From the IMG/VR virus record IMGVR_UViG_3300020171_000088, positions 1 through 33,393 of that record: a stretch of 33,393 nucleotides of DNA. One strand, given 5' to 3'. Below the pieces are notes generated by a model, which saw only the letters and a program-made list of their open reading frames with translations, was not told the DNA's origin and ran no database searches. This DNA is from a virus. A program made the translations under genes and the position numbers. This document shows, piece by piece, positions 2,800-30,056 of the stretch; positions within the stretch are counted from its first letter, which is position 1, and every line of letters begins with the position of its first letter.

Positions 2800-2911
2800 T
2801 TTTTCTTTTGATTCTTTGGTATGTTTATGCCCAAGTGCATTTTTATTTCCTATTCCTGCTAAACCTATATTTTGTTTTGTTGCTTTGGTATGTTTAGATC
2901 CTTTTTTTCAT
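2800..2911 (-). pseudogene. Frameshifted 5' end of the NUMOD3 homing endonuclease
   Basis: Reading from ATG 2911, the frame is M-K-K-R-I-stop. If one A of the A7 run at 2902-2908 is skipped or removed, translation continues without interruption through two more NUMOD3 repeats into the 2326-2799 frame. This would give a protein of about 194 residues. Either the gene is broken, the run is a sequencing error, or the run is a slippage site. In the downstream frame a TGA sits immediately before the A run, so there is no alternative upstream start. Seen directly: the A7 run, the early TAA and the uninterrupted repeat homology. Which explanation holds is not decidable here. Confidence 0.6.
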
Positions 2912-2937
2912 AGTATAATATACAATAATTTATTCAT

Positions 2938-3354: not shown

Positions 3355-3893
3355 TCACGTGTTATAAGTGTCAAATCGAAATAATTATTACCGCCTGTGC
3401 CATCTGCTCCATAATCCGCCAACTTCAATGGAATTGTCACTATTCCATTCAATATCGTCTCAATCGAATTTTTGACTATTTTTCTATCTTGGTAGTCACC
3501 ACCGATAATCACCAGCGGGAGTTGTGTGAATAGCGGGACCGCATTCCCACGAATATCGATATTGAGCGGCGCTGTTCCTGTTACGAAATTTTGCCAATTA
3601 TTTGGCGGTGTAGGGCTTATCTGAATCTTTCTAAATAAGAATGTCGCATTGATTGCATTCTCCGAACCCATCCAAATCTTACCCCATTCGGGTTTAAGAA
3701 CTCCATCAGCCGCCCATATACCAAATCGAGAAATTTCCGTCCAATTGCAAGTGTAAGCACCCGCCGAGTAAGTCGCAGTCACCAAGATTATTCCTGTATT
3801 TGCGGCATCTCTAATTGTCACAGTCAATCCTGTTAAAAATACAGGTCTACCAGCCACTTCGTAAACAATTACCTTTTGCAAACTTCTCGCCAT
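3351..3893 (-). CDS. Hypothetical distal tail/baseplate-region protein
   Basis: A 180-residue protein starting MARSLQKVIVYEVAGRPVFL. An in-frame TTG lies four codons upstream, at 3905, but ATG 3893 is the better start because it overlaps the preceding small frame as TAATG. The first ~70 residues are beta-rich, with TVTIRDAANTGIILVTATYS resembling Ig-like or carbohydrate-binding folds. Further on is FLFRKIQISPTPPNNWQNF, and the C-terminus is LKLADYGADGTGGNNYFDLT. There is no signal peptide, unlike the next gene downstream. Its position after the putative distal tail protein and before secreted/fibre genes suggests a baseplate or fibre-attachment component. That is inference from gene order only; no family was recognised. 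Confidence 0.6.
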   Translation of the reverse strand: MARSLQKVIVYEVAGRPVFLTGLTVTIRDAANTGIILVTATYSAGAYTCNWTEISRFGIWAADGVLKPEWGKIWMGSENAINATFLFRKIQISPTPPNNWQNFVTGTAPLNIDIRGNAVPLFTQLPLVIIGGDYQDRKIVKNSIETILNGIVTIPLKLADYGADGTGGNNYFDLTLITRE

Positions 3894-3985
3894 TATATAA
3901 TCCAAATTCCATCTATACTCAATATCTCATCAATATAAGAGTTATAGGCTATATCTTCTACTGCATCATAATAACAAATATCCAA
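3893..3985 (-). CDS. Possible 30-residue ORF with TTG start
   Basis: In the gap between the 3998-5608 and 3351-3893 genes, one frame reads MDICYYDAVEDIAYNSYI and continues through DEILSIDG to IWII. It starts at TTG 3985 and its TAA overlaps the next ATG as TAATG, the same coupling seen elsewhere in this genome. The composition looks protein-like (acidic, aromatic). There is no visible Shine-Dalgarno and no ATG, and the frame is the same as that of the upstream 536-residue protein, separated from it by two stop codons, so it may be a decayed C-terminal extension instead. Confidence 0.3.
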   Translation of the reverse strand: MDICYYDAVEDIAYNSYIDEILSIDGIWII

Positions 3986-3997
3986 AATTTAGAAATA

Positions 3998-5608
3998 TTA
4001 AACATCTTTATCCTCTGTAAAAGTTAATTCAAAGGAACGCTTTGTTAAATCCCAAAAATTCTTTTTAATATTAACAATACTCAACTTACCTACTAATATA
4101 GGAGGTACATCATCAATATAAGGATGTAATGTTAAAAGAAAACCTTTACTTTGCCAAGTCAATAATTTTAACATATCATTCCAAAATTCTTGACTTACAT
4201 AAGAAAAACTAGCCTTTATTACATAACGATAATCTGCCTTAGAATCACTTAAACTAGAAATTACTTCTTTAGAACTTGTTTCCTCAACAACAGACCAACT
4301 TACTGAACCCATATCTGGCCAAACATTATAACGACCAAAATCCACACAACCATCGGAAGGATAAGATAAGCCCGCAGAATGTTCTAATATAATATCATCT
4401 AAATATAATATTAATCGATCATCTACCGTAGGCGTCTGCCCAGATAAAGTTCCTACATTAGTAGTTATCTTTATACTAGGGGGGAGATGTTTAATTCCAC
4501 TAGTCCTAAGATTAACAGGAGAACTCAAATATTTAACCCAACCTGTATCCCTAGTCCCTGTAGTAACTAAAGTTAAAGCACTAAATGTAATAACTTCTGA
4601 CCAAGAATAAGCTCCGGGATCAATATAAGGAAATATATAAGTAGTAGCAGGATCTACCTTATTACTAGTAAAAATAGCCCTATAAATTATACCTACTCTA
4701 TAATAGGCATTAGTTACTAGTGTACTATATTTCCAAGGTGAAACCAAAGTAGCTTTAGCTGCTGCGTCCTGACCTGCTTCTAATAAAAATTGTATAAACT
4801 GACCTTGGTTTGGTGATCCATAAGGTCCATATTGCATTGATAACCTTTGAGCATAAGATTTTCTATATCCCCCAAGGTGAGTAGTTCCTATTAAAGCATT
4901 GACCGTAACATTATTACCTACAGACCATAAGGAAGTAGTTTTAAATCTTATTTTACCTATACCAGAAGTACTCATATCTATAATATTAAAAGGCTCAATA
5001 GCATTTTCAGATAAAGTAATATTTCTTGCATAATAACTGCCATCCTTCCAGGATCCTAATAAATATTCGCCAGATCCTAATGTTACATTTACTATAGCAA
5101 AATAACTACTTCCTATAGTCTCTACAGAACTAACAGTATTATTAGTAATAGTCTTCCGACCTCTATATCCTAATTGAATTATACCACTTTTTATTCCTTC
5201 ACATTTTAAAACAACTCCATAAGGAAACCAAGCCTCTGCTTTACCTTGTCCAAATAGAGTATAAGGATCTGATACTTCATAATCTAAAGTAGTATCCGAG
5301 TACTTGAGATAGACTATACCTGTAGTTGCTGCACCTTCCTTATTTGTATGTGAAGCCAAGATTTCTAATTCTTCAGTATCATTGTTATCAGTATTAGGTC
5401 CTAATCTTACTTTGTCACCAAATTGGACAATATCATCTAACCAAAAATTATTCTCTGTATTAAGAATTGCTTTATCTACATTATCTCCAGTAATAACTGC
5501 AGCAATAGTACTTACAAATCGAGTTCCAGTAGAAAATCTACGGTCACGCAAATCCACTGCGATTGCCATTTGCCACGGGTTTCCTTGCTGATATGTAATA
5601 CTAGCCAT
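3998..5608 (-). CDS. Putative distal tail / baseplate hub protein
   Basis: A 536-residue protein whose start (MASITYQQGNPWQM) follows a strong GAGGAGG placed in the last codons of the tape measure gene, two bases after its TAA. The first gene downstream of a tape measure usually encodes the distal tail protein (Dit) or an equivalent baseplate hub. The size, beta-rich composition and the C-terminal block (WNDMLKLLTWQSKGFLLTL, then DVPPILVGKLSIVNIKK and KRSFELTFTE) agree with a tail-tip protein whose last domain packs against the tube. The middle (about residues 150-400) looks like a jelly-roll/carbohydrate-binding insertion (SGYGTT-type strands, YLDDIILE). No catalytic motif seen. The assignment rests mainly on gene order. 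Confidence 0.6.
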   Translation of the reverse strand: MASITYQQGNPWQMAIAVDLRDRRFSTGTRFVSTIAAVITGDNVDKAILNTENNFWLDDIVQFGDKVRLGPNTDNNDTEELEILASHTNKEGAATTGIVYLKYSDTTLDYEVSDPYTLFGQGKAEAWFPYGVVLKCEGIKSGIIQLGYRGRKTITNNTVSSVETIGSSYFAIVNVTLGSGEYLLGSWKDGSYYARNITLSENAIEPFNIIDMSTSGIGKIRFKTTSLWSVGNNVTVNALIGTTHLGGYRKSYAQRLSMQYGPYGSPNQGQFIQFLLEAGQDAAAKATLVSPWKYSTLVTNAYYRVGIIYRAIFTSNKVDPATTYIFPYIDPGAYSWSEVITFSALTLVTTGTRDTGWVKYLSSPVNLRTSGIKHLPPSIKITTNVGTLSGQTPTVDDRLILYLDDIILEHSAGLSYPSDGCVDFGRYNVWPDMGSVSWSVVEETSSKEVISSLSDSKADYRYVIKASFSYVSQEFWNDMLKLLTWQSKGFLLTLHPYIDDVPPILVGKLSIVNIKKNFWDLTKRSFELTFTEDKDV

Positions 5609-5610
5609 AT

Positions 5611-8600
5611 TTATCCTCCTCTACCTACTGCCTTTCTTGCTATTTCCGAAAGGTCCAATTCTCCCCTATCAACAGCCGATTGTATAGTTGACACTAGTAA
5701 ATCTTGAACTTGTTCCGTAAATTCAGCAACTGAACCACTTCCTATGAAAACTTGATTTCCTGAAATATAAACAACTGGAGAAATAGTAATATCAAGATTT
5801 TCAGCTCTTATAGTCCCACCTGTGGTTCTCTCTCCCTCAATTCTACCCTCTGCTTCAGCTGCTGTTACTGCTGTAAATTCACCACCAGGAGTACCACGTT
5901 CTAGTGCTGTAGCTCCGAATCCACCAGCTGCTTGTATACCTACACCAGCTGCAACCATTCCCCAATTAACTCCTGCCATTGCTCCATGAGCTCCTGCAAT
6001 AGCTCCATAAGCCGTAGCAGCAGCAGCAAATTGAGCAGCATATAACTGTCCCACTGGAGGAGGCATTAAAGCAGAAGCAGCAGCCATAGAACCTGCCCAA
6101 AGGGCCATTTGAGCTGATTCATAAGCCCTACCTGAAGAACCAATTGCTTGTCTAACCCCTTCTTCAATTAAAGCTGCTCCAACAGATCTTGTAATACTTC
6201 TTATAATGTCAGCAGCCATTCCTGCCCAAACTTTTCTACGGTCCGCAGCAGTTTTAGCATCAATTCTTTTCATGTTTTCAGCAAACTGAGCTTGAGTTAT
6301 TTCTCCTTGAGCCAAGGCCTTCTTTTGTTCATTAACCATATCACTTTGGGTTTTACTTATACCAATAGTAACCTCATACATAGTATTACCAAATTCCTGG
6401 AAACCTCCTACCATTTGCTCAATTGAACTTAACCAAGCAGCAGCTTCATCAACAGCCAATTGTCTACGTTTCATAGATTCTTCTTCTGTAATGGTTGTCA
6501 TCTCAGATTGACATTGTCTATCTATCTCCACTAAGTCAACTTTATATTTAGCCATTGCTCCCATTATTTCATAATTACTCTTAGCATTTTTAAGATTAGC
6601 TATATATTGCATCTCGGCTACTTGTTTAGCAACTATAGCTATTTCAGCTAACTTTGCCTTTTGTTCAGCAAATACCATAGTAATTTTTTGGCCTTCGGCC
6701 TCGTAATTCTTACCTAAGAATATTCGACTTAAAGTAATCTCCCCTACTCCAAGACCTTCCATTTGCATACTCTTTATACTTTGCCTGGCTGCATTGCCTA
6801 TCTCAGCCATCTGCTTACTTAATTGTAATAAAGGAGTAGCATCAATTAATGCCATTCTTTCAATTATTAAATCTAGACCCTTAACTAAATTCTGAATATT
6901 TGGATCAGCTTCTATACTAACTTTACTAACTCTCTCTATTGGAACCTTAGTCTTCTTACTAATTCTTTCAGCAACCTCTTGTCTTTGTCCTTTTAATAAA
7001 GCTTCAGCCGTAACCTTAACTCTATCCATTTCCTCACGTTGTAACTGATAAGCCCTAACAGTATTACGAATAGACGTTAAATAAGGAGCACTATAACCTT
7101 GTAATTCTTGTATACTTTCTGCTAAGGACAAATTAGAGTTTGTTAATTCTCTCACCGCCTTTCCTTCTTGATATACAAGTTGTTCAATTTCTCTCGCCAG
7201 AGCTCTTCTTAACTCTCTTTCTTTTTCAATAACAGCTGCTAATTCTCTTCGTTTAAGGTGCTCTATAAGTATTGAAGTTGCTAATATCAGAGCCCTTTCT
7301 TGTTCACTCATTGCTTCTGCTTTTTTAGCTTCACTAGTTTTTGAAATAGCATTACTAACTTCTCCATATTTAACTATCCACTGATCCAGTACCTTCACGG
7401 CAAGACCTTCCCCCTTAGCTTCTAATTGAATTCTAATTGTAGCAAAGACATCTGTTAATCTTTTATTAAGTGCAGCAAGTGCTACTTCCTGATCACTAGT
7501 CAAAGCAATACCTGAACTTAACTGCATAAAGTACTGCCCAAATATATCAGAGGCTTCTTTAAATGATTTAGCTGCTAAACTGGATTCTCTATTAATAACC
7601 TGCCAAACCTGTAATTGGAAATCAGTATCTGTCTTCAAACTTTCTTCCAATAAACTTATTTGCCTCTTCAAATTATAATATTGACGAGAATAATATTCTT
7701 CTCTAATGGCTGATATACCAAAAACTCCAGTCTCATTGAATATCTTCCAAGCTGCATTCATTTCCATAGTCAACCTCTTGTGCCTTTCCATTGTATCTAG
7801 AACTTTAGTAGATTTTGAACTCATCTGATCCATTCCACTATTAAACTGTTCAAGACTACGAGATAAATTATTAAGAGCCTTGGGTCCTGATTCTCCTAAT
7901 TCTTTAAACTTCATTTCTAATTGGGAAAGTTTTAAGGTCTGATCTGTAATATTTGCATGGAGCACGTCTCTTAAATTCTTTATTTGATTGGCTATACCTT
8001 CTAATTCACTTTGAGCTTTAGTATAAGTACTAATTAAACGAATAACAAGAGACTCATCATAACCTCTTAATCTAATATCAGCCGTCTCTCTTTCTATAGC
8101 AAGTATCCTTTGATTACCTTTTCTTATTATTTTTGCTACGGCCCGTTGATGAGCTTCTTCAGAAATCCTTATCAATAATTGTCCATAAGTAACTGCTCCA
8201 TATCTTTGTTTAATTATTGTCTCCTCAATTGCAATATCACTCAAGGTAGCCTTCTTCAACTTCTGTATCCTTTCAACAGATTTAGATTGCATCTCCCATA
8301 TTTTCAATAATTCAGAGCCTGAAGATAATTCCTTTACCATTTCCTCTGCAGTATCAACAAATACCTGTCTACGAGCAAGATGTTCATCAGTAATCTGACT
8401 CATCTTGCTCATGGCCTCACCATAAGCACTTTCAAATTCTTGGAACCTACTTAAGGATTCCTCTACAGACTTCACATTTTCCTCAGTAGGATCACTTACT
8501 GCTCTTATCTGAGCAACTGCCAATTCTCCTTGAGTCTTTATCATCTTACTATAACTATCATTAGCAGTCTTCAATACTTCAATATAATCAGATCTCAAAT

Positions 8601-11600
8601 ACTTACTGTATAATTGAGTGGAAGTCTTTACATCATCTAATCTATTCTTATAAACCCTAACTTTTTCTGATACATCTTGTAATTGCTTTGAGGAAGAATC
8701 AAGCCTCTTATTTAATTCATTAAGATCTGCTGCTCTCTGCTTTGCTCCTGCAAACCAATCAATTACCTTGAATGCAGCTACTGCTATTAACATCGGCCAT
8801 AAGACTTTAAATAATGCAACAAAAGCTGTTTTTAATCCTACTACGGCTAATGCCCAATTATTAGTAGCTCCGGTAGCTGCTCTCATACTAGCCGTCCAAG
8901 CCTTAAATCTAACAGGTATATTAACAAGCCATTCTCCCAAACCCTTTACAGAAGTCTTTACAGAATTTATAGTCCTACCAAAAAACCCTGATACAGTATT
9001 AGCAGCCTTCATTGCTATAGTATTTGCTTGAGTCTGAGTAGTTAATGTTAACAAATTTTTTCTAACTGCACCAATAACTCCAGAAAGTTGTCCTGAACTT
9101 TGTATTTGCTTATATTGCTCAGCAGTAACACTTCTTAATACAACTCCGTGGGCCACAGCATTTAGTCTAGCTGTATATTGAGATAAACTCATTTTATCCA
9201 AGGACCTAGCAGCTCTTAAAGACATAACATCAAGCATACCTTGTCTAACTGCAAATTCTTTAAATCCTCGCAGATTAGTTGCAATCAATCCAGGAAGTCT
9301 TTTAAAGTTGTCAAGCTGAGCTACTCTATTCATTACAGTTAAGGACTGAGTGACGTTATGAATATGAGGAGCTATACTTGAAATAGAGACTCCAATACCC
9401 CTAAAAATTCCACCTATCATACCACCCATCTTCATAGCAATCCATAACTTAATAACCCACATGATAGTAGTAGAAAAGTTATATGCTATTTTTATCACAC
9501 TTCCCCCAATAAAACCAAATAAGCCTGCTACGTCTTTTGTAAAAATACCTATATCTCTTGCAAAACTCTTCAAACTTGCTCCCAATTTTTGGTTTTCATC
9601 TCCCCAAACTTTTATACTACCTACTATATCACCTATAGCAGACATAAATGTACTAACTGCAGGTCCTAACATATTACCTAATGTTACTTGCATTTGTAAT
9701 AAATTAGCATTGAATTGCATAATAGCTCCACTGGCAGTATTCATATATTTATCAATATTACCAGTAAATACTAAACTCTCTCTCAGTATTCCTTCATACT
9801 TAGCTTGACGTTTTTGAAGTTCAGTCAAGGCTCCAACTGTAGTACCAATACTCGCAGCAAATTCTTTATACATGATGGACAAGTTCTTCGTCACCCCTGC
9901 ATTGTCAATCATAATACTATTGTTCTGGATAATCGAGTTGGCTACGAAGTTAAAATTATGCGGTACTGATAATTCGTAAACCTTCAATTTTCCTTTGTAA
10001 GTAATCTTTACAACCTTCTTCAATATTGGTAAACATACTAAGGATTTCTTCAAATGTTCGTTCAGTAAAGTGATAGTCTTCTCTGTGACACCGTGTACAA
10101 AGGGTGATACCATTATTGATTTCGAGCCGAAGATCTGGGTATTCTTTTTGAGAGAAAAAATGATGCGCGTTATTATTACCTGTGCAAGGCTCACCGCATT
10201 TAACACATCGTAACTCATCGCGGAGAAATACTTGCCGTTTCCACTCTTTATATTCTCTTCGTTGTCGCCCTGATTTTTTATGACTTCTTCCACCCTTCCA
10301 AGCTGGATGATTTTCTCCTCTTGCTGTTTGAGACCACCAATCTGCTCTGCATTTTCTTGAACAAAACCTTGTAATTTTTTCTCTAGCAGGGATAATAACC
10401 ATTTCTTTTCTACAAATTTCACAGGGTCTTTTGATCTTATCAACATATCTAGGGCTATTTTCGCCAGAGTTGTTTCGTCCATTATTGATTGCCCGGCAAG
10501 TAGCTGAACATAAAGCTCCGTATCCTCTTTGGACCAATTTTGTAGACGCAACAAAATCTCTTCTGCAGATTCGGCAGTTAGATTGAGAGAATCCTTTAAT
10601 AATTCCCCGTCCTTCGACAAACTCTCTTGTTGCAAAAGTTGCAAAACATTTACTACTGCAGACGGAATATCTATACCAACTTCGGTACTTATTTCCGATG
10701 AGTTCAAATTCTTTTCCACAAACTTTACATTGTTGCATAATTCCTCATTATTGTTAATATTTAAAGTTTCTTCATTAACAATATAGAGTAAATCTTGATT
10801 TTCTACTAAGTCTCCTGTAAAAACAAAACCTTTTGGAGTTAAGAACCTATGATTGATAGTAACTTCTTCAGTTTTACCATCTTCTAATTCTACTTCAAAT
10901 ACTTCTTTTATTCCATTATAATGTAAATATTCTGCCTGTGCTACTTCCATTAAACCTGTTTGTCTATTCACTGATAAAACGCAAGGAACAATACCTCTAT
11001 CATGCCACCCCTCAATTGTATCCCATTCCCTTCTAACAGGATCATAAATTCTAGTATCCCACGCAATACAATTATGGACTATCATTTGATTAGCCATAAA
11101 ATTGTGAACCTTCTCTACAGTTAAATCATAAACAGGCTCTGCTCCTATAGAAATTACAGAAATTACCTTTTCCCATTTCTCCTTAAAAATTCTCTTAATC
11201 TGATGGATCTTATTATGACATTTTACACACACTGTAATCCCATTATTTATGTCTAAAGCTAAATCAGGTCTTTCTCTTACAGAAACCCCATGATGCGTAC
11301 ATAAATAATCTTTACTACCACATAATCTACAAACCTTATTATCTCTTATCAGAACATCCTTCTTCCATTTTAAATAATCAGTTGACTTAATACCTAAATT
11401 ATCACAACGATTATTTATATAATTCCAAGCCCTTCTAACTTTGGGATTACTTAAAGCCAAACCTTGTCTAAACATTGAAAGACATTCGTCTGAACAGAGA
11501 TGTCTATCTCCAACCTTATTTACTAGTTTGTGCTGTTCTATATCAAATTCAATACCACAAAGATCACAATTATATCTTACTAATTTATTCTTACCATACT

Positions 11601-14109
11601 TAAAATTATAACCATTTTCCCCTATAGCATTAGATGATATCCACTCACCTTTACATTCCCTAGAACAAAAATGATTTTCATCCTTATTCAATCTAAAAGG
11701 CTTCTTGTAAAAAGATTTACTACATACAGAACAAATAACATTAGACTCAGGACCTATTGAAGGATTTTCAATATACCATTTCTTTTTACAATCAAAAGAA
11801 CAGAACTTCTTTCTTTCCATTTTAGAAGGTTTGGTATGAAATTCAGTTTTACAATATAAACAAGTTTTATTGTTTTCTCCTCTTCCGGAACCTTCTTTAG
11901 TTTTATAATCATTACAACATTCTTGTGAACAGAATTTCTTCCTGCCTAATTTAGCTTTCTGAACTTTAATTAACTCACCACAGTTTAAACAATCAATAAA
12001 ATATTCATCTCCCTTCTCTTCATAAGTCAATTCAAGTTCTTTATTGTAAAAATCTACTATCTCAGTGTGATTGTCTACAGCTAAGATTTCATCCTCATTA
12101 ACTACTAAATCCTGAACCTCTACCCATCCACGTTTTGTATATACTCTATCTTCTGCAGTTAACTCAATATCTTTCCCAGACTCTAATGTAACTTTAAATC
12201 CGTCCCGTTCTCCATTGCAAATAGCACTAGTAACTAAATTATACTCTAACTCCTTATTTTCTTCGTTATAAGAAATAGTATAAAATGGACTATTCCAATT
12301 ATCAAAAATATCCCCAATAGTTTCATAAGTTCTTGTTAAAGTATTGAAAATTAAAGACTTACGAGTTTTACAATTCTCATTTTTTATTCCTTCTGTAGCT
12401 CCAATTACAGCTTCCCCTAATGATAATTGTCCTTGCCTATTAAAAGCAGCAGCATTAGTCAGAGCATTCATCAAATTGATAGATTCAGGCAATCCATAGC
12501 CTGCTGATAATAAATTTTTCAGGGCAGAAGCAGATTCTCGAATACTCATTAAACCTTTCTCTGAAAAACCTAATGCTGCCATTTCAGCCACTTTTAAATT
12601 AGCCCCTGTATTCACTGCTACTGCTCCTAAACCTTTGATGGCAGCTTCAGCAAGTCTACTTGACTCAAAAAACTTACCCATCATTGCCATCATTCCCCCA
12701 AAAGTAAAGGCAAGCAATAATAGCTGATTACGTAAAGCTCCAAAGAATCTTGTTAATTTAGCTGTAGATCCTCTAAATTGTTCTAAACGGTGATAGAAAA
12801 ACCCCATTTCTTCTCTTGTTCTACCCGCTGTTGTGCTAAAATGCTTAAAATGGTCTCCAGTAGCCTTAATAGTTTGGCCAGTAGATTTAACAGCTTTACT
12901 AGTCTTATCTAGAGCAGTCTGTTTCTGTTTCAAAGCCGATGTAGAAGTTGTAGTAGCCCTATCAGTATCTTTAATAGAAGAAATAACTGCTCGAGATCCC
13001 TTAGCTAATCCCCCAAAAGCTGTTTGTGTAGCTTTAGCTGCCTTAGCAGTTTGGCTTAAGCTAGTTCCAGCCTTGTTTATACTCTTACTGCCTCTCTCCA
13101 TTTGAGTAACGGCCTGACCAAACGAAGAAACTAATTGACCCATTTGTTTCCCTTCATCCTTCATACCTCTACCTAAATTACCTACAGCAGTAACCATTTT
13201 GGATGTAGACTTATCTAAGATACTCAATAATCTATCTTTTTGAGTTACTGTTAATGATTCTGTAGAAAGGGCTTTAGTTTCTTCAGAAACTTCAGTTTTA
13301 AGTTTTTTTGCTTTAGTTGCAACTTTATCCTTAGCAGAAGCTAGTTTTTCTGCGGCCATTTGCAATTTTTTATATTCTTCTGTACTAGCTTTAACTTGAG
13401 TTATATCTTCAACTCCTACTTTAGTAATAGGAGCTTTAACGCGGGGTACTTTAACTGCTTTTCTATATTCTCTATCAATTCTAGCTTCCTCCTTAGCTAA
13501 CATATCTTGTTCTGCTAACCTTCGAGCTCTAGCAGCTTCTCTTGCAGCAGGAGGAGTTACTCTAATTTTTTCGGGAGAGATAATTCTAGCCTTAGCAGTT
13601 ATTCCTGCTTCCTTAGCCAATGTTTTCTCTTTAGTGCTTAATTCCCCTATTCTTTTTTCATATAAAATAGTACTATTTATAACTTCAGTCATAGCACTTC
13701 TAACCTCACGTAGGCCCTTACTAACCTTTCCCAAGTTTACTAAATCTGAATTCTTTACAACATCAAATTTTACTGATCTTAATGATCCACCTAATTTAAC
13801 ATACTCCTTTTCTAATTCCCCTAAAGTAGTTTTTAATTTATTAAGTTCTACCGTTGGAAAACTGGCAACTCGCTCAGGTTTACTTATTGTTCGCTTAATA
13901 GACTCTATAGACCTAAGCTTACCTTCCATTGCAGCAAGAGAACCTAGATCTTTATCTATATTATGAACCATAGCTGCTAATTGTCTATCAGTAGCAGCAG
14001 CAGATACTCCAAACGCAGCAAGGGCTTTCTGGGCCGAACCTAATTGACCCATACCTTTAACTGAGATATCCAACAACATCTCAAGCCTTTTCTGCATTCT
14101 ATCACTCAT
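5611..14109 (-). CDS. Tail tape measure protein interrupted by two adjacent inteins
   Basis: Start ATG 14109 (MSDRMQKRLEMLLDI) is preferred over an in-frame TTG at 14124, because GGAG lies nine bases upstream of it and it overlaps the previous stop by eight bases. The frame encodes 2832 residues. Numbered from this ATG, inteins occupy residues 580-1013 and 1014-1397, leaving about 2014 residues of tape measure. The host protein is a long alpha-helical/coiled-coil chain with hydrophobic stretches (LLLLAFTFGGMMAMMG before the inteins; VALFKVLWPMLIAVAAF after them) and an Ala/Gly-rich hydrophobic tail end (MAAASALMPPP onward), all typical of tape measures that span the tail and help DNA entry. 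Joining the flanks gives ATEGIKNEN-SIMIDNAG, which reads like the conserved tape-measure block with VDNAGVTKNLS. A 2014-residue ruler suggests a tail near 300 nm at about 0.15 nm per residue. Confidence 0.93.
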   Translation of the reverse strand: MSDRMQKRLEMLLDISVKGMGQLGSAQKALAAFGVSAAATDRQLAAMVHNIDKDLGSLAAMEGKLRSIESIKRTISKPERVASFPTVELNKLKTTLGELEKEYVKLGGSLRSVKFDVVKNSDLVNLGKVSKGLREVRSAMTEVINSTILYEKRIGELSTKEKTLAKEAGITAKARIISPEKIRVTPPAAREAARARRLAEQDMLAKEEARIDREYRKAVKVPRVKAPITKVGVEDITQVKASTEEYKKLQMAAEKLASAKDKVATKAKKLKTEVSEETKALSTESLTVTQKDRLLSILDKSTSKMVTAVGNLGRGMKDEGKQMGQLVSSFGQAVTQMERGSKSINKAGTSLSQTAKAAKATQTAFGGLAKGSRAVISSIKDTDRATTTSTSALKQKQTALDKTSKAVKSTGQTIKATGDHFKHFSTTAGRTREEMGFFYHRLEQFRGSTAKLTRFFGALRNQLLLLAFTFGGMMAMMGKFFESSRLAEAAIKGLGAVAVNTGANLKVAEMAALGFSEKGLMSIRESASALKNLLSAGYGLPESINLMNALTNAAAFNRQGQLSLGEAVIGATEGIKNENCKTRKSLIFNTLTRTYETIGDIFDNWNSPFYTISYNEENKELEYNLVTSAICNGERDGFKVTLESGKDIELTAEDRVYTKRGWVEVQDLVVNEDEILAVDNHTEIVDFYNKELELTYEEKGDEYFIDCLNCGELIKVQKAKLGRKKFCSQECCNDYKTKEGSGRGENNKTCLYCKTEFHTKPSKMERKKFCSFDCKKKWYIENPSIGPESNVICSVCSKSFYKKPFRLNKDENHFCSRECKGEWISSNAIGENGYNFKYGKNKLVRYNCDLCGIEFDIEQHKLVNKVGDRHLCSDECLSMFRQGLALSNPKVRRAWNYINNRCDNLGIKSTDYLKWKKDVLIRDNKVCRLCGSKDYLCTHHGVSVRERPDLALDINNGITVCVKCHNKIHQIKRIFKEKWEKVISVISIGAEPVYDLTVEKVHNFMANQMIVHNCIAWDTRIYDPVRREWDTIEGWHDRGIVPCVLSVNRQTGLMEVAQAEYLHYNGIKEVFEVELEDGKTEEVTINHRFLTPKGFVFTGDLVENQDLLYIVNEETLNINNNEELCNNVKFVEKNLNSSEISTEVGIDIPSAVVNVLQLLQQESLSKDGELLKDSLNLTAESAEEILLRLQNWSKEDTELYVQLLAGQSIMDETTLAKIALDMLIRSKDPVKFVEKKWLLSLLEKKLQGFVQENAEQIGGLKQQEEKIIQLGRVEEVIKNQGDNEENIKSGNGKYFSAMSYDVLNAVSLAQVIITRIIFSLKKNTQIFGSKSIMVSPFVHGVTEKTITLLNEHLKKSLVCLPILKKVVKITYKGKLKVYELSVPHNFNFVANSIIQNNSIMIDNAGVTKNLSIMYKEFAASIGTTVGALTELQKRQAKYEGILRESLVFTGNIDKYMNTASGAIMQFNANLLQMQVTLGNMLGPAVSTFMSAIGDIVGSIKVWGDENQKLGASLKSFARDIGIFTKDVAGLFGFIGGSVIKIAYNFSTTIMWVIKLWIAMKMGGMIGGIFRGIGVSISSIAPHIHNVTQSLTVMNRVAQLDNFKRLPGLIATNLRGFKEFAVRQGMLDVMSLRAARSLDKMSLSQYTARLNAVAHGVVLRSVTAEQYKQIQSSGQLSGVIGAVRKNLLTLTTQTQANTIAMKAANTVSGFFGRTINSVKTSVKGLGEWLVNIPVRFKAWTASMRAATGATNNWALAVVGLKTAFVALFKVLWPMLIAVAAFKVIDWFAGAKQRAADLNELNKRLDSSSKQLQDVSEKVRVYKNRLDDVKTSTQLYSKYLRSDYIEVLKTANDSYSKMIKTQGELAVAQIRAVSDPTEENVKSVEESLSRFQEFESAYGEAMSKMSQITDEHLARRQVFVDTAEEMVKELSSGSELLKIWEMQSKSVERIQKLKKATLSDIAIEETIIKQRYGAVTYGQLLIRISEEAHQRAVAKIIRKGNQRILAIERETADIRLRGYDESLVIRLISTYTKAQSELEGIANQIKNLRDVLHANITDQTLKLSQLEMKFKELGESGPKALNNLSRSLEQFNSGMDQMSSKSTKVLDTMERHKRLTMEMNAAWKIFNETGVFGISAIREEYYSRQYYNLKRQISLLEESLKTDTDFQLQVWQVINRESSLAAKSFKEASDIFGQYFMQLSSGIALTSDQEVALAALNKRLTDVFATIRIQLEAKGEGLAVKVLDQWIVKYGEVSNAISKTSEAKKAEAMSEQERALILATSILIEHLKRRELAAVIEKERELRRALAREIEQLVYQEGKAVRELTNSNLSLAESIQELQGYSAPYLTSIRNTVRAYQLQREEMDRVKVTAEALLKGQRQEVAERISKKTKVPIERVSKVSIEADPNIQNLVKGLDLIIERMALIDATPLLQLSKQMAEIGNAARQSIKSMQMEGLGVGEITLSRIFLGKNYEAEGQKITMVFAEQKAKLAEIAIVAKQVAEMQYIANLKNAKSNYEIMGAMAKYKVDLVEIDRQCQSEMTTITEEESMKRRQLAVDEAAAWLSSIEQMVGGFQEFGNTMYEVTIGISKTQSDMVNEQKKALAQGEITQAQFAENMKRIDAKTAADRRKVWAGMAADIIRSITRSVGAALIEEGVRQAIGSSGRAYESAQMALWAGSMAAASALMPPPVGQLYAAQFAAAATAYGAIAGAHGAMAGVNWGMVAAGVGIQAAGGFGATALERGTPGGEFTAVTAAEAEGRIEGERTTGGTIRAENLDITISPVVYISGNQVFIGSGSVAEFTEQVQDLLVSTIQSAVDRGELDLSEIARKAVGRGG
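9919..11070 (-). mobile_element. Intein 2 of the tape measure, hosting an out-of-frame HNH gene
   Basis: 384 residues from Cys1 (TGT 11070, CIAWDTRIYDP) to Asn in VANSIIQNN, followed by Ser+1 of the tape measure (SIMIDNAG). Block B is intact: VTINHRFLTPKGF (TxxH present). The C-terminal block is KVYELSVPHNFNFVANSIIQNN, with Asn in place of the usual penultimate His. Its first residue directly follows the last Asn of intein 1, so no extein separates the two. The central ~240 residues show no nuclease in this frame and read as helical filler rich in Leu, Glu, Lys and Gln. The same bases encode an HNH endonuclease in another frame (9956-10738). The base composition of this section is visibly richer in GC than the flanks, which points to insertion of foreign DNA. 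Confidence 0.9.
9956..10738 (-). CDS. HNH homing endonuclease encoded out of frame inside intein 2
   Basis: 260 residues starting MQQCKVCGKEFELIGNKYRS. GAGG stands four bases before the ATG (GAGGAATTATG), a slightly short but plausible ribosome site. Three zinc ribbons come first (CKVCGKEF...VCSSKC, CRICRRDF...LCSATC, CEICRKEM...FCSRKC), then ENHPAWKGGRSHKKS, then the HNH domain: EWKRQVFLRDELRCVKCGEP, NAHHFFSQKEYPDLRLEINN, GITLCTRCHREDYH. It is clearly homologous to the HNH part of intein 1 (RD...C..CG, HH, PDL.L.INNGIT.C..CH). The gene lies wholly within intein 2, on the same strand but in a different frame from the tape measure/intein frame, which stays open through all 783 bases. The last 37 codons overlap the intein's C-terminal splicing block region. 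A separate mobile gene that landed in a mini-intein is the simplest reading. Confidence 0.88.
   Translation of the reverse strand: MQQCKVCGKEFELIGNKYRSWYRYSVCSSKCFATFATREFVEGRGIIKGFSQSNCRICRRDFVASTKLVQRGYGALCSATCRAINNGRNNSGENSPRYVDKIKRPCEICRKEMVIIPAREKITRFCSRKCRADWWSQTARGENHPAWKGGRSHKKSGRQRREYKEWKRQVFLRDELRCVKCGEPCTGNNNAHHFFSQKEYPDLRLEINNGITLCTRCHREDYHFTERTFEEILSMFTNIEEGCKDYLQRKIEGLRIISTA
11071..12372 (-). mobile_element. Intein 1 of the tape measure, with zinc-ribbon array and in-frame HNH endonuclease
   Basis: 434 residues from Cys (TGT at 12372) to the Asn of FMANQMIVHN. The N-terminal splicing block begins CKTRKSLIFNT. Block B is LTAEDRVYTKRGW, where the usual TxxH histidine is Asp. The C-terminal block VYDLTVEKVHNFMANQMIVHN has the canonical His-Asn end. 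Between them are four CxxC...CxxxC zinc ribbons (e.g. CLYCKTEF...FCSFDCKKKW, CSVCSKSF...FCSRECKGEW) and an HNH nuclease: WKKDVLIRDNKVCRLCG, THHG, PDLALDINNGITVCVKCHNKIH. The +1 residue is not extein but Cys1 of intein 2. Known for the family: the HNH domain promotes homing and the intein excises itself. The missing block B His could slow splicing or shift the step order. Confidence 0.93.
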
Positions 14110-14770
14110 TCCAGAAGTCTCCAATTATCTTAGTAAATATTAAATTTTTTAATTTCTTTATTGCCCCCTCATTAAAATAAGCAAAGGGTCTAGCAGGAAC
14201 CTTAACAGTTACTCTCTTTCTAGATGAGGTCTCACTTCCTGCCAATATCTTACCTCCTCGTCCTGCTCTAAATTTTCTAGCCACATCAACTTTTTCACCG
14301 GGATTAACTAGAACCTTATAATGTTTATGTCCATATTGTTTTTTCAAAGTTACTAATTCAGCTTCTTCAGTTCCTCCCTCATTTTGAATAGCAGCATAAG
14401 GAACTAAATTTGTGAACCTAATGGACATTCGGTCTTCTGTAGTTTCTATACTCAGACCTCTTTTACCAAAACCTCTTTCAAGTCTTCCTGTCCTATGCAA
14501 CACAGGATATTTACCACTAATAGGAAATCCTTTAATAGCTCTAATAATATAAGTATACTTTTTTAATTTAGGCCAATTAGGTGGGTTACTCCCTGCTCTC
14601 CCATCAGAAAGATTTTCTTCAATGTTTTGTTTCAGAATAGTATAAATTTTCTCTTTATAAGAACTTAATTTACGGATGGAGTGACGAAGCGTTCCTACAC
14701 TTACCAGTTCATTCCCTAAAGAGGAGGGTTTTATTAATCCTTTCTTACCTTTTATTGTTATTTTAGTCAT
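14102..14770 (-). CDS. Tail completion / virion morphogenesis protein (Mu gpG / HK97 gp10-like)
   Basis: A 222-residue basic protein. It shows the layout of the phage virion morphogenesis family: N-terminal helix (LSSYKEKIYTILKQNIEENL), then PPNWPKLKKYTY, the block PVLHRTGRLERGF, the strand pair SIRFTNLVPYAAIQNEGGTE, and the terminal VPARPFAYF motif followed by a helix. In relatives this protein sits at the head-tail junction or caps the tail. Here it lies between the tail chaperone ORFs and the tape measure rather than before the tube gene. Its stop overlaps the tape measure start by eight bases. Family assignment is from motif order, moderately sure; the precise role is inferred. Confidence 0.75.
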   Translation of the reverse strand: MTKITIKGKKGLIKPSSLGNELVSVGTLRHSIRKLSSYKEKIYTILKQNIEENLSDGRAGSNPPNWPKLKKYTYIIRAIKGFPISGKYPVLHRTGRLERGFGKRGLSIETTEDRMSIRFTNLVPYAAIQNEGGTEEAELVTLKKQYGHKHYKVLVNPGEKVDVARKFRAGRGGKILAGSETSSRKRVTVKVPARPFAYFNEGAIKKLKNLIFTKIIGDFWNE

Positions 14771-25383: not shown

Positions 25384-26796
25384 TCACCTATAATCAAAAT
25401 CATCACTATCACTCTCTATATTTTCCTTATTCTCATCAATATAAGTTGAAGTCAGTGTATCGTAAAATGGATCCTCAATGGCTTTCATCTCCTCCTCAGA
25501 CATTTCAATATATTCAAATTCATTATTCACACAATTAAATACAGAACCAGCCATAGACTCTATCAAATCACTTGAACCACCTGGGTGACATGCAATCTTA
25601 TTTCTCTTAGAATTGTGTTCCAATTCTTTTGATTCTATGATCCAAGGTTCTCTAAGATGAGATCCATCTAAAGTTCTAGGTACTAATAATCTATCTGTAT
25701 AAATAACCTGCTTTAAAGATTCATAAGCCGCTGTATATTGACCTTCTGTACTTCTTTTCTTAAAACCCTCCTTTTCATGTTTATCAAGCAATATCTTCTG
25801 GGTAGTACGATCTATAGAAAGGGTAGTTGTGGTATAACCTGCATCTTTCAATATTTGTATAGAATCTACAGAATTGTGAACAAATATACCTGACTCAAGA
25901 CCAAAGTTATGATAATTCTCAACTTCTAGATCATACACGTCATCATAACCATAAAACTCTATAGCTTTAATTTTATGATTATTAAATTTTTTCTTTCGGA
26001 AATAAAGGGGCATGACTGAATCATTAATCTTTAATTCACTCGCTAATTTATAAGTTCCATCTCGCATCAAGATAGGATGTCCACCTGTACATAATAGGAA
26101 CTCCCCATTATCTATAGTTATCTTATAAATCGGGACCTTATTTCCTGTTTTTCGAGCATTCTTAGCTTTACCAGGAACAATCATTCCTCTATCATTATCC
26201 CAACTATAAACCCAATAATCTTTACCAGGAGGCATTTTAGAAAGTTCTTCAATGGTAGAAGAAGTACCATCTAACAATTTAATTTTTGTCGAACCATGTA
26301 AACAATTAAATCTATCAAATGTTATTAAAGTAATATAAAAATGTCTTCTAGATGTCATATATATTAACTCTCTTATATCTCCTAATATAATCTCCTCACC
26401 TTTAACGGCTGAAATCTTACCTATAAAATCGAAAGTTATAAAAGGTACCTTTATCTGTTCCAATACTTCTCTTCCATCTTTTATCATTGAAATTTGTTGA
26501 GTAATAAATCTAGAAGCATGACACATTGAAATACCTACTGAATCACGACTAACTGCTAAGTCTATATGCATATAACGCCTAAAATTATCAGTACATGTAA
26601 AATCATCTCTAAACTTTAATGCAAAATCATCAAAAGGATTCCAAAGAGTATCACTAACGGTCTTTTCTGATTTTCCTTTACGTCTGAAAAAAGGTCTTAA
26701 GGCCTCTAGTGGGATACATGCTATATCTCTTATAAAGTTATCAGGGTCAGAATCAAAGCGTTGTCTTAATTCTATGGGAATTCTTATAATGGCCAT
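25384..26796 (-). CDS. terL: Terminase large subunit, nuclease domain polypeptide, with mini-intein
   Basis: 470 residues: about 326 after removal of a 144-residue intein at residues 165-308. It begins MAIIRIPIELRQRFDSDPDN with FIRDIACIP, a linker typically found inside intact large terminases between ATPase and nuclease. RNase-H-like nuclease motifs: YMHIDLAVSRDSVGISM with Asp79; FITLI-like strand to TFDRFN (Asp161) continuing after the intein with SVDSIQILKDAGY; and GGSSDLIESMAGSVFNCV with Asp410. This domain cuts concatemeric DNA. The ATPase domain is a separate gene upstream (27315-30056) and an exonuclease gene lies between them, so the functional terminase must form from two polypeptides. 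The acidic C-terminus (DSDDFDYR) is usual. Starts three bases after the exonuclease stop. Confidence 0.88.
   Translation of the reverse strand: MAIIRIPIELRQRFDSDPDNFIRDIACIPLEALRPFFRRKGKSEKTVSDTLWNPFDDFALKFRDDFTCTDNFRRYMHIDLAVSRDSVGISMCHASRFITQQISMIKDGREVLEQIKVPFITFDFIGKISAVKGEEIILGDIRELIYMTSRRHFYITLITFDRFNCLHGSTKIKLLDGTSSTIEELSKMPPGKDYWVYSWDNDRGMIVPGKAKNARKTGNKVPIYKITIDNGEFLLCTGGHPILMRDGTYKLASELKINDSVMPLYFRKKKFNNHKIKAIEFYGYDDVYDLEVENYHNFGLESGIFVHNSVDSIQILKDAGYTTTTLSIDRTTQKILLDKHEKEGFKKRSTEGQYTAAYESLKQVIYTDRLLVPRTLDGSHLREPWIIESKELEHNSKRNKIACHPGGSSDLIESMAGSVFNCVNNEFEYIEMSEEEMKAIEDPFYDTLTSTYIDENKENIESDSDDFDYR
25873..26304 (-). mobile_element. Mini-intein in the terminase nuclease domain
   Basis: 144 residues from Cys (CLHGSTKIKLLDG) to HN (YHNFGLESGIFVHN), followed by Ser+1. 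Block B is intact: LLCTGGHPILMRDGT (TxxH). Block F/G: DVYDLEVENYHNFGLESGIF ending VHN. No room for an endonuclease, so it is a mini-intein. It splits the motif TFDRFN-SVDSIQIL, close to a predicted metal-binding Asp of the nuclease. Confidence 0.93.
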
Positions 26797-26799
26797 AAA

Positions 26800-27315
26800 T
26801 CACACTTTCAAAGCTTTATGTATACGGTCAACCCAAGCTAATCGATACACTACATTATATAGACTGAGAGCGTCTGCTACAGCCCGGTGCTTCATTGCCG
26901 ACTCTATATTATAGTATTTAATAATAGTTTGCAATTTATTATTTATAGTAGGTAATCTCATTTCTCTAATCCAAGGATAAAGATCCAGATACCTATGGTT
27001 ATTTTGAGTAATTTTATAATAATCAAGAAATACCTTTTCAAATGGAGCATTATAAGCTAAAATTGGAGCCTTATGAATAAAATCCGCAATAATCCCCTGT
27101 AAATTTTCAATTGTAGGAAAACCTGACAACATCTCTTTAGTAATACCTGTTTCTACAGAAATATCAAAAGGTATATTTCCTTTTATATTGATAAAAGTAT
27201 GGAATATATCAAATATCCTATAACCATCTGCCTTTATCAAACCTATTTCAGTTATTTCTGTTCCCCTATTAGGAGATAAGCCTGTAGTCTCAATATCTGC
27301 ATAGATCACAATCAT
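26800..27315 (-). CDS. DnaQ-like 3'-5' exonuclease inserted between the two terminase genes
   Basis: 171 residues with the three DEDDh motifs in order: ExoI YADIETTGLSP (Asp7, Glu9), ExoII ILAYNAPFEKVFLD (the usual Asp after NAPF is Glu93), ExoIII KHRAVADAL (His143, Asp148). The length equals a bare exonuclease domain as in DNA polymerase III epsilon. The start overlaps the terminase ATPase stop as TAATG, and its stop is three bases from the nuclease-domain start, so all three are translated as a block. Known activity: removal of 3' nucleotides. A link with packaging, end trimming or repair of cut DNA is inference, as is the idea that its gene fractured terL. The Asp-to-Glu change may alter metal binding. 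Confidence 0.88.
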   Translation of the reverse strand: MIVIYADIETTGLSPNRGTEITEIGLIKADGYRIFDIFHTFINIKGNIPFDISVETGITKEMLSGFPTIENLQGIIADFIHKAPILAYNAPFEKVFLDYYKITQNNHRYLDLYPWIREMRLPTINNKLQTIIKYYNIESAMKHRAVADALSLYNVVYRLAWVDRIHKALKV

Positions 27316-30056
27316 TATAATTTATAGACCTCGATTCCATCTTCTGTCTCAGGTTTAGAGTTATTTAATCTCTCGATTATATTAGGATCTTCAATTACTT
27401 TTAATTTGTCGGTATCTACATAAAAATATTCTCCACTTTGATAAAACTTAGGACCCTTTGCTACCCATAAAGGTCTCCTTTTCCAGAAAATACCAGAAGA
27501 TAAACCTAACTTCTGGGCTTCTCTCCTTTTTCTAGAAGTAAAATCTCCTGGATACTTTGGAGAAGAGCACATACAAATTAAACCTGGAAGGGTTCCATCT
27601 GGCCTCATAAATCTGGAAGCCATACGATTCATTATAGCGTTATACATTTCCTCTGCCGCATCATAAGTCTCTTCGGACTCTGCAGCCCTCTTTGAGTCTT
27701 CTACTACTTCTAAAAAATTAGCCTCATCAACACAATTGTGAACTACTATACCATTACTTAATATAAAATTAGATGTTTCTGAATTAACTACATCAAAAAC
27801 GTCCTCTTTACCTAATAACTTCTTTGACTTAATTCTACATTTAATAAAACCTCTATCACTAACTATTTCATCTTTATCAGTAATTTCATCAAGAGATTTA
27901 TAACTAAACTTATAACCTTTTCTCCTGGATCTTCTGTAAGTCATAAAGAGTTGATCAGCTGTGGCTTTGAATTTACTACCATCTTCCATTTCGACTTCAT
28001 AAACTTCTGTATTCTCTCTAGTTTTAATTATATTCTGGGCATTAACATTAATAAAATACTTCTCATTAAATCCCTTTAAAACTATTGGACCACAGTTTTC
28101 TAACTCTCTAAAAGTTTTAATCTCTCCACTACCTAATTTAATTTCTACATCCCCCGTAAAACAACCTCCCAATAAATTATACCCCAAAGCAGATAAAGCC
28201 GAGCTCGTGCCAGCATATACTACTGTATTGTTTCGAGAAATAAAAATCTCTCTTCTCATACGAGGATTAGAAGGAAAATAATCTTGATTAAAAGGAGATT
28301 TAAACCTCTTCCATACATCACTGAATATAACACGACGGGATTGAGCTTCGGATCTTGATAAACAGATAAATGCAATTGTAGAATCTTTATGTAAGTTGTA
28401 GTATTCCTGGGGGCTCAAGTGCATAGACGCTTCATACCACAATAACCAAAGTAAAACGGCTACCTTTATAGTTTTCCCACTATTTTTCAAAACAAAACCA
28501 TTTCCAACAAATAAATGACTATCAGGAATGTGAAAATCAAAAACTTCCTGATTACCTAAATCCTCAACTTGCTCAATCTTTAACCAAACACAATTCTCCC
28601 TTAACCGTTCTTCTATAGCTTTCAGTTCTCCTGAAACATTAGAAATAAATTTATACTGATCATAAAACTTTCTTAATTTAGTTCTGCCTGGGTTCTGTTT
28701 GCCATAAACTATAGTTTTAAACCTCCTTACAGCATTACCAATTCTATCTCCATATTTAACATTATCTACTATTTTAGTCAAAATCTTAAATTGATGGGGT
28801 ATTACTTCTATATTAGGATTAAATTTCTCTTTTAATAACTCACTTTTATTTTGTTTCCTTTTAAGACTAAAACCTATAAACTCATAAAACTTTTTAGCAT
28901 TAATCCCATTAATCTTAAGTCTCCAAACAACAGAGGTTTTCTTATCAATTCTAGCTATACCTTTTGGTCCCCAACAACATTTCTTAGTTCCTATCAAAGA
29001 AAAAATATCAAAGTTTAATAAAATTAGTTGAAGCTGTTTTATCAACTTCTCATTAGCAAGGGATATTCTAACCCTTCCTTTTTTGTCCACACTCCCGTCT
29101 GTAGTAAATAAACCTCTTAAAAAAGCAGCTTGAATTTCTTTGGGAGCCTCTAATATAAACCACGGAACTTCTTTAGTATAACAATCCCCTGTTACCCCGC
29201 ACAACTTCAACCAACGGACAAAACCTCTGCCAATAAAATGATAACTTAAATTATCAATAGGATTCTGATGATTATTTTTTACACTTATACTGCTACAAAA
29301 ATTTTTAAAAGTTTCAATCAAGAGATTTATACATTCTTGGTCAATTTTACTTTGAGTAAAACTAACCTCATTCTCTCCTATCCCTCCATCACCACAAATA
29401 ACCCCAAAACCATAAGCAATATCCTCAGTCAATTCTATTAAATTATTCTTGAAGTTTGGCAAAATTCTACGACTACCAAAAAGATTCATTCCTTTAGCTA
29501 CAGCAACATAGTCTCCTACCTTTAACCTACTAGCTTCTTCCATTGTAGAATAACCATTGTTTTGCATTATTTTAATAGGTTCTACAATAGAACAAACTAA
29601 TTCAAAACCTCCTCTTAGTTTTATTTTTAATGTAGGTTTGTGAGTTTTTATGATATGGGAAGGATAATCAATTTTTTCACCATTGTAAAGACCTATAATA
29701 GACTTGTTGAGATATAAATCTTTAATAGTTTTTAGACCTTCAGTAGTATAAATATAAGTATTAGGTCCTACACAGCCAATGCCTTCCTCGTCGATAAAAG
29801 TATGTATATTAACCCCTGGCTTCTTTCTCAGACCCCACAACTCCACTATATCATCTAATACTCCTGGATATACCTTATCCCCAAATCCCAAAAAGTAATT
29901 ATCCCTAATTAAAGTTTCTACAGGTATACTTTTAAATTCATCTATAGTTTGTTGATTCCAAGATTTTAGAGAACCTGTGGTTTCTTCGGTCCAATCCTCT
30001 ATCCACTCCTTTGCTACATCCGAAAGTATACCCTTGAATAATTCATTGTCTGGCAC
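27315..30056 (-). CDS. terL: Terminase large subunit, ATPase domain polypeptide, with two inteins
   Basis: 913 residues from GTG 30056 (MPDNELFKGILSDVAKEWIE). Inteins take residues 95-525 and 632-774, leaving about 339. Removal of the first restores EEGIG-SGKTIKVAVLLW, the Walker A loop. Removal of the second restores NLLGG-CVDEANFLE, Walker B with DEA. Between them are SRSEAQSRRVIFSDVWKRF and NNTVVYAGTSSALSALGYN; after them is the coupling motif MCSSPKYPGDF. The polypeptide ends at VYKL without the nuclease domain, which follows as a separate gene (25384-26796) after the exonuclease gene. The ATPase powers DNA translocation through the portal. Both catalytic motifs depend on protein splicing, so packaging should be blocked unless the inteins excise. 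Confidence 0.9.
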   Translation of the reverse strand: MPDNELFKGILSDVAKEWIEDWTEETTGSLKSWNQQTIDEFKSIPVETLIRDNYFLGFGDKVYPGVLDDIVELWGLRKKPGVNIHTFIDEEGIGCVGPNTYIYTTEGLKTIKDLYLNKSIIGLYNGEKIDYPSHIIKTHKPTLKIKLRGGFELVCSIVEPIKIMQNNGYSTMEEASRLKVGDYVAVAKGMNLFGSRRILPNFKNNLIELTEDIAYGFGVICGDGGIGENEVSFTQSKIDQECINLLIETFKNFCSSISVKNNHQNPIDNLSYHFIGRGFVRWLKLCGVTGDCYTKEVPWFILEAPKEIQAAFLRGLFTTDGSVDKKGRVRISLANEKLIKQLQLILLNFDIFSLIGTKKCCWGPKGIARIDKKTSVVWRLKINGINAKKFYEFIGFSLKRKQNKSELLKEKFNPNIEVIPHQFKILTKIVDNVKYGDRIGNAVRRFKTIVYGKQNPGRTKLRKFYDQYKFISNVSGELKAIEERLRENCVWLKIEQVEDLGNQEVFDFHIPDSHLFVGNGFVLKNSGKTIKVAVLLWLLWYEASMHLSPQEYYNLHKDSTIAFICLSRSEAQSRRVIFSDVWKRFKSPFNQDYFPSNPRMRREIFISRNNTVVYAGTSSALSALGYNLLGGCFTGDVEIKLGSGEIKTFRELENCGPIVLKGFNEKYFINVNAQNIIKTRENTEVYEVEMEDGSKFKATADQLFMTYRRSRRKGYKFSYKSLDEITDKDEIVSDRGFIKCRIKSKKLLGKEDVFDVVNSETSNFILSNGIVVHNCVDEANFLEVVEDSKRAAESEETYDAAEEMYNAIMNRMASRFMRPDGTLPGLICMCSSPKYPGDFTSRKRREAQKLGLSSGIFWKRRPLWVAKGPKFYQSGEYFYVDTDKLKVIEDPNIIERLNNSKPETEDGIEVYKL
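27735..28163 (-). mobile_element. Mini-intein at terminase Walker B
   Basis: 143 residues from Cys632 (CFTGDVEIKLGSGEI) to NGIVVHN, followed by Cys+1 of CVDEANF. Block B is KATADQLFMT with Gln in the place of the His. The C-terminal block (DVFDVVNSETSNFILSNGIV, then VHN) is canonical. No endonuclease. It separates the strand before Walker B from its DEA acidic residues. Confidence 0.93.
28482..29774 (-). mobile_element. Intein at terminase Walker A, with LAGLIDADG endonuclease
   Basis: 431 residues from Cys95 (CVGPNTYIYTTEGL) to LKN, followed by Ser526 of SGKT. Two LAGLIDADG helices: AYGFGVICGDG (about 214-224) and AFLRGLFTTDG (about 312-322), with their Asp residues present, so the homing endonuclease looks active. 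Block B lacks the usual TxxH: the segment reads ELVCSIVEPIKI with Glu at the His place. The C-terminus HLFVGNGFVLKN has Lys instead of the penultimate His. Splicing may therefore be slow or conditional. Confidence 0.93.

Follow-up and report, generated by a model that had tools for sequence, protein, structure and literature searches.

Out-of-frame HNH endonucleases are known from the ShiLan domain of mycobacteriophage DNA methylases, the disjunct distribution of which suggests homing (Arsenault, Gosselin and Gogarten 2025, PMC11855218); tape measure genes are absent from that paper, and the word terminase occurs in it once, in another context. The locus described here lies in a phage known from a single 33-kb metagenomic contig (IMG/VR record IMGVR_UViG_3300020171_000088), the 33,393 nucleotides of which are referred to as the window. 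Like ShiLan, it has a zinc-finger/HNH gene out of frame in a host gene, the frame of which stays open. However, ShiLan lacks intein motifs and is thought to be retained in a non-essential methylase, whereas the present HNH ORF lies in a complete intein (intein 2) of the tape measure protein (TMP), an essential structural gene product that the intein should be able to leave. The combination of an HNH ORF in another frame with an open host frame is therefore present, but the second ShiLan trait, a retained insert devoid of any splicing signature, is not. Judging from the intein motifs that flank the overlap, intein 2 would work like a ShiLan element without being one.

In the dCTP deaminase intein of cyanophage CL131, which excises itself in E. 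coli, an HNH_3 domain is found in frame at aa 259-304 (PMC6293099). Similar to this intein and to the neighbouring intein 1 of the TMP, intein 2 combines a HINT domain with an HNH between its N- and C-terminal splicing blocks. In inteins of that kind the nuclease forms part of the intein polypeptide, as a domain in the frame of the splicing blocks, whereas the hidden HNH is a separate ORF, one frame off. The “fractured genes” of Dassa et al. (2009; cited in PMC8228797) are reportedly inteins split in two, with a free-standing gene for the endonuclease lying between the parts. They likewise encode the endonuclease as a separate protein in the intein locus; however, there the host gene is split by the endonuclease gene, whereas the TMP ORF runs uninterrupted between the halves of intein 2 and the endonuclease overlaps it. 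Group I introns also carry HNH endonuclease ORFs, such as I-PfoP3I (PMC3428280), and share with intein 2 the endonuclease class, a self-removing carrier and an essential phage gene as host; by contrast, removal of intein 2 would occur at the protein level, and its carrier would itself be protein-coding in an overlapping frame.

In a search of the open-licence literature, the only out-of-frame endonucleases found were ShiLan-type methylase inserts, without splicing motifs (PMC11855218; PMC12613952), and no report of an out-of-frame endonuclease within an intein was found. A ShiLan-like case was also seen in Escherichia phage BUCT618 (L007, OM735461), where an out-of-frame 201-aa HNH ORF lies at positions 1992-2597 in the DNA methyltransferase CDS.

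The tape measure inteins and the nested HNH frame

The TMP ORF resembles the TMP of Pseudomonas phage KT1 on both sides of a single insertion site, which is occupied by two inteins (a slash marks a splice junction):

5611..14124, minus strand: TMP ORF, 2837 aa, with two inteins; extein similarity to the TMP of phage KT1
12373..14124, minus strand: N-extein, ending ATEGIKNEN/; site empty in KT1 and in viral TMPs
11071..12372, minus strand: intein 1, 434 aa, zinc ribbons and HNH in frame (PF14890 E 6e-17, PF01844 E 3.8e-5)
9919..11070, minus strand: intein 2, 384 aa, Cys1 to Asn384/Ser+1, host of the hidden gene (PF14890 E 1.2e-9)
10739..11070, minus strand: N-terminal splicing part of intein 2, block A Cys1 and block B T71-x-N-H74, outside the overlap with the hidden ORF
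9919..10050, minus strand: C-terminal splicing part of intein 2, blocks F and G, ending VPHNFNFVANSIIQNN/S; boundary to the filler approximate
5611..9918, minus strand: C-extein, beginning /SIMIDNAGVTKN, from the ORF and the survey of the TMP site

The TMP ORF is continuous from 14124 to 5611 across intein 2, which has the motifs C1, T71-x-N-H74, block F VYELSVPHNFNFVANS and N384/S+1. With these motifs and a PF14890 match above the cut-off, intein 2 is predicted to contain a HINT splicing domain, in which the penultimate residue is Asn, not His. It ends in NN instead of the usual HN, and the corresponding intein of the viral contig L009 ends in KN; a non-His penultimate residue can slow splicing in other inteins. 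Pfam detected no HNH domain in the own frame of intein 2, in contrast to intein 1. The uninterrupted site, KN[EQ]N/S, is found in KT1 (GLKNEN/SVLVDNAG) and in almost every one of 80 viral TMP loci, so that intein 2 is inserted precisely in a conserved host protein that has intein-free homologues.

The two inteins stand head to tail at one TMP site with zero extein residues between them, and the +1 nucleophile of intein 1 must be Cys1 of intein 2, or Ser+1 once intein 2 is gone. The start of such a tandem recurs in contig L090 (IMGVR_UViG_3300009285_008404), which carries an intein-1 homologue and then, at 5280-6160, an intein 2 represented by its N-half only; beyond it come a stop and genes for tRNA-Lys/Ile/Ala, into which the contig runs. 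The half may be an artefact of the contig, or else the intein is truncated or split. In L009 and in a further contig, L120, intein 2 stands alone.

The hidden ORF lies wholly within intein 2, one frame off:

9956..10738, minus strand: hidden HNH endonuclease ORF, 260 aa, ATG start; the intein frame is offset +1 relative to it
10743..10746, minus strand: GAGG, Shine-Dalgarno-like, 4 nt before the hidden ATG
10334..10738, minus strand: zinc-ribbon modules of the hidden protein, HNH-frame aa 1-135
10079..10207, minus strand: HNH catalytic domain, HNH-frame aa 178-220 (PF01844)
9956..9958, minus strand: stop codon (TAA) that ends the hidden ORF, lying within intein block F (CCG CAT AAT)

The earlier note had read this ORF as a complete zinc-ribbon/HNH protein with its own ATG and GAGG in another frame of intein 2, with motifs too complete for chance, and both points hold. 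The 260-aa product matches PF01844 above the cut-off (E 3e-5), and its catalytic H/N/H and zinc cysteines are conserved among 17 relatives, in which C178, C181, H192, H193, N209, C214, C217 and H218 (hidden HNH numbering) are invariant and the Cys columns 4, 7, 27, 31, 55, 58, 77 and 81 near-invariant. The zinc-ribbon part has a weak match to zf-FCS. An AlphaFold2 model, built with the 17 relatives as input, has a mean pLDDT of 83, and its top PDB match in Foldseek is the HNH of phage GVE2 (5h0m; probability 1.00, E 0.03). The hidden ORF has the intact HNH motif and zinc-binding cysteines of an HNH homing endonuclease. The second-longest nested same-strand ATG ORF in the window has only 56 aa.

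Three HNH-frame stops (TAA, TAA, TGA) lie immediately upstream of the hidden ATG and rule out an in-frame fusion of the HNH to upstream sequence. The GAGG overlaps the last of them, the TGA at 10745-10747; its predicted duplex with the anti-SD reaches −5.6 kcal/mol, a modest value equalled or bettered by ~13% of same-strand ATGs. The ORF has no private stop and ends at the TAA within block F.

Constraint on the two frames

Over the 783-bp overlap the intein frame contains 0 stops and the third frame 31, in agreement with the claim of an intein frame open throughout. When the synonymous codons of the hidden gene were shuffled, 2.9 stops were expected in the intein frame (P 0.01 for an open frame); under the codon usage of the phage 11.4 were expected, and an open frame was obtained in 0/40,000 trials. 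The avoidance is specific. An A-ending Ile, Leu or Val codon followed by a purine creates TAA or TAG in the intein frame, and such codons before purines number 0/22 in the hidden gene, compared to 5/15 before C/T and 646/1415 in the other phage genes (Fisher p 2e-6), whereas other A-ending codons before purines (39/63) are commoner than in the other genes of the phage. With the codons of the window gene itself, 2.9 hidden stops are expected in the offset used versus 28.9 in the other same-strand frame; the offset used thus has an order of magnitude fewer hidden stops, and of the two only this frame can be maintained free of stops.

A profile scan of viral contigs and a survey of the TMP site yielded two further cases. 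The TMP of L009 has a single intein, inserted at exactly the same site; its HNH ORF (3983-4759) has the same offset, is 44% identical to that of the window and starts at its own ATG behind a strong SD, AAGGAGGAGG. The TMP of L120 has an intein at 2717-4000 with an HNH ORF at 3064-3945, same site and offset, which is more divergent (35% identical) and has a modest SD. In both contigs the stop of the hidden ORF is a TGA overlapping block F (TAT GAC in L009, TTT GAT in L120); the window ORF ends a few codons later, at its TAA. The C-extein of L009 is apparently frameshifted downstream of the intein, at 5272-5324 (ORF 2370-5324 continued by ORF 5272-6690), which is either an assembly error or real.

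For each pair of TMP inteins, both HNH proteins were held fixed, their synonymous codons were shuffled 3000 times and the BLOSUM similarity of the intein frames was scored. The intein frames are far more similar than the HNH proteins dictate (0/3000 shuffles reached the observed score in each pair), with z of 6.15 for window/L009, 5.79 for window/L120 and 6.25 for L009/L120. Control regions of the same genes, namely the exteins and the non-overlapping N-part of the intein, gave z from −1.2 to +1.8, and therefore ordinary synonymous sites retain little residual similarity. In the reverse test, with the intein frame fixed, the similarity in the HNH frame had a z of 14.8, so that the HNH is also under selection. 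As z is about 6 in all three pairs and the flanks show nothing comparable, both frames are under selection: they form overlapping genes, each conserved beyond what the other dictates. The codon-position analysis over homologues that the earlier note had called for points the same way. Between the window and L009, divergence at the three positions is nearly flat in the overlap (0.40/0.41/0.50), compared to 0.59-0.76 at position 3 outside it and an ordinary 0.26/0.24/0.59 in the N-part of intein 2. The proposal of dual coding kept in both frames is thus strongly supported by three divergent TMP inteins, and a chance open frame is ruled out by the codon analysis and the conservation together.

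The excess conservation of the intein frame is concentrated in two segments, identified by sliding-window comparison with L009:

10472..10618, minus strand: intein-frame segment conserved beyond the HNH constraint, opposite HNH aa 41-89; z 2.6-3.0
10106..10252, minus strand: strongest such segment, KYFSAMSYDVLNAVSLAQVIITRIIFS..MVS, opposite HNH aa 163-211; z 3.3-4.6

The filler is therefore not inert, and the description of the intein frame as only helical filler has to be abandoned, the segment itself being conserved (z up to 4.6). AlphaFold2 modelling of the intein frame, with two sequences as input, gave a pLDDT of 35.

Relatives and terminase inteins

Relatives were obtained by alignment-based scans. 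Single-sequence scans recovered none in viral contigs and no named-phage relative of the intein, and two-sequence alignment scans of genome contigs recovered none either. The hidden HNH belongs to a widespread HNH family, whereas the filler of the intein frame matches nothing. In the tree, the three hidden HNHs cluster (93/77) apart from the in-frame HNHs of intein 1, which form a separate clade (100/99); derivation of the hidden HNH from that of intein 1 is hereby ruled out. No homologue of intein 2 with an in-frame HNH was found, so one objection foreseen in the earlier note, that such homologues might exist, fails. Most HNH relatives carry stops in the same offset frame (126 rows checked), and the clear hidden cases among the 126 rows are only L009 and L120, with their second loci, and L229; the frames of L026 and L232 are short or broken.

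In contig L132 the TMP is interrupted at 2910-4010 by a non-open, intron-like insert of ~1.1 kb, 5 nt downstream of the intein site, with a related, apparently frameshifted HNH that is placed as a sister in the tree at weak support (81/17). This insert is consistent with an HNH family that targets the TMP site. None of the window, L009, L120 and L132 gave a match to an RNA family in Rfam, which leaves the L132 insert unclassified.

The out-of-frame arrangement is not unique to the window. L229, found among the relatives of the hidden HNH, has an intein in the large terminase subunit (TerL) with an out-of-frame HNH_3 endonuclease (PF13392 E 2e-14). Of 29 viral contigs examined that encode this HNH, 27 place it at the same offset within a long ORF that stays open; in almost all of the 27 an intein C-motif appears before the host gene resumes. 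The same TerL layout occurs in four GenBank records: Acinetobacter phage vB_AbaM_Highwayman, Rhodobacteraceae phage LS06-2018-MD07, Tetrasphaera phage TJE1 and an unannotated clone (MT838676). In the records of the three named phages only “large terminase” is annotated and the endonuclease has no CDS, so current annotation misses such endonucleases. The TerL cases are an independent recurrence of the hidden layout. Their host frame has 0 stops in 22 representatives, where 0.9 to 6.3 are expected per gene, and their intein-frame sequence is weakly conserved beyond the HNH constraint (mean z 0.95). Most of the hidden starts have no SD, and frameshifting or leaderless initiation is possible in this class. 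A relative of the TerL-class HNH is free-standing beside terS in Acinetobacter phage BP10, the TerL of which is uninterrupted.

In L229 (2620-2650) and its TerL-class relatives, TGATATACTATA before the hidden start looks like an extended −10 promoter, a likeness that may be a by-product, as the same bases specify the conserved intein residues SDILYI.

A proposed composite homing element and its alternatives

We propose, with a probability of roughly 0.8, that intein 2 is a composite homing element, consisting of a splicing intein and a separate HNH endonuclease made by internal initiation. Ribosomes from the TMP start codon would read the intein frame, the product of which would fold the split splicing domain, excise itself and leave an intact TMP. 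Ribosomes starting at the ATG at 10738 would read the other frame and yield a free-standing zinc-ribbon HNH endonuclease. The targets of this enzyme would be TMP genes without an intein, cut near the conserved KNxN/S codons, and repair would copy the whole intein into the cut gene. The endonuclease frame would derive from a known HNH family and the opposite filler would be overprinted; stops in the intein frame would be purged because any stop there destroys the tail. Both ORFs, the splicing motifs, the empty sites and, across three divergent phages, the conservation of both frames are observed, whereas internal initiation, splicing, cleavage and homing are what we infer from them. Targeting of the TMP site is suggested indirectly, by the shared site in the three phages and by the L132 insert. 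The idea that a free gene landed in a mini-intein is plausible, as is retention of the HNH for mobility.

The alternatives concern the role of the HNH, the way it is made and the origin of the layout. The HNH could be a parasite of the intein, with another target sequence and the intein as a safe harbour; its family is mobile and often free-standing, as is the TerL-class relative in BP10. The same intein type and TMP site in three divergent cases, together with an intron-like element with a related HNH at nearly the same TMP position in L132, make this unlikely. Survivorship alone would mean that the HNH dropped into an intein where the frame was open by luck, with no constraint beyond the lack of stops. 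Given the codons that each gene has available, an open frame would arise by luck with a probability that is small but not negligible (P 0.01 in the window, 0.045 in L009), and the weak mean z of the TerL class would fit. For the TMP class this reading is disfavoured by the z of about 6 in each pair, the strongly conserved specific segments and an openness maintained across deep divergence, and on the whole we give it little weight.

If programmed −1 frameshifting, not internal initiation, produced the HNH, the protein would be fused to the N-part of intein 2. This would agree with the −1 position of the HNH frame relative to the intein frame, seen in every case, and with several TerL-class starts that lack an SD. 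Such a fusion is nevertheless quite improbable: the three HNH-frame stops before the window ATG leave little room, inspection by eye revealed no canonical slippery heptamer near the starts, and the SD at the ATG is strong in L009 and modest in L120. Finally, indels do occur in such contigs, as the apparent frameshift of the L009 TMP illustrates, and could have displaced an endonuclease that was originally in frame, an error that the earlier note had itself considered. The probability of this is negligible. The intein frame is open and conserved from end to end of the overlap, each hidden ORF has a start of its own, and the layout recurs in independent contigs, three for the TMP and more than 20 TerL contigs or records, with an offset that is always the same; a sequencing or assembly frameshift is refuted by this recurrence.

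As a composite element, the hidden-HNH intein appears to be a genuine type of mobile element that has largely escaped notice. An intein can carry a homing endonuclease outside its own protein without breaking the host gene, the two genes being superimposed. Superimposing the genes uncouples the nuclease from the splicing protein in dosage and fate. At the same time the nuclease becomes tied to an essential gene, because most disruptions of the nuclease also disrupt a tail or packaging protein. The same-strand overlap is unusually long and offers testable functions in both frames, and the terminase examples in named, sequenced phages allow direct testing where isolates exist. A broader reading, which we advance tentatively at a little under even odds, is that mobile inteins have a third, widespread architecture, the hidden-endonuclease intein, alongside those with an in-frame endonuclease and the split inteins with a free-standing gene, and that in the TMP class the filler has turned into a new protein segment with a function, for instance a helical part needed by, or regulating, the splicing domain. 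One stretch of DNA would then encode two selected proteins of one selfish element.

The phage carries five inteins in 33 kb. In addition to the two in the TMP, three lie in the terminase region of the window (25384-30056, minus strand): a LAGLIDADG intein and a mini-intein in the ORF 30056..27315, and a mini-intein in the ORF 26796..25384. A DnaQ-like exonuclease ORF (27315..26800) is located between these two terminase pieces.
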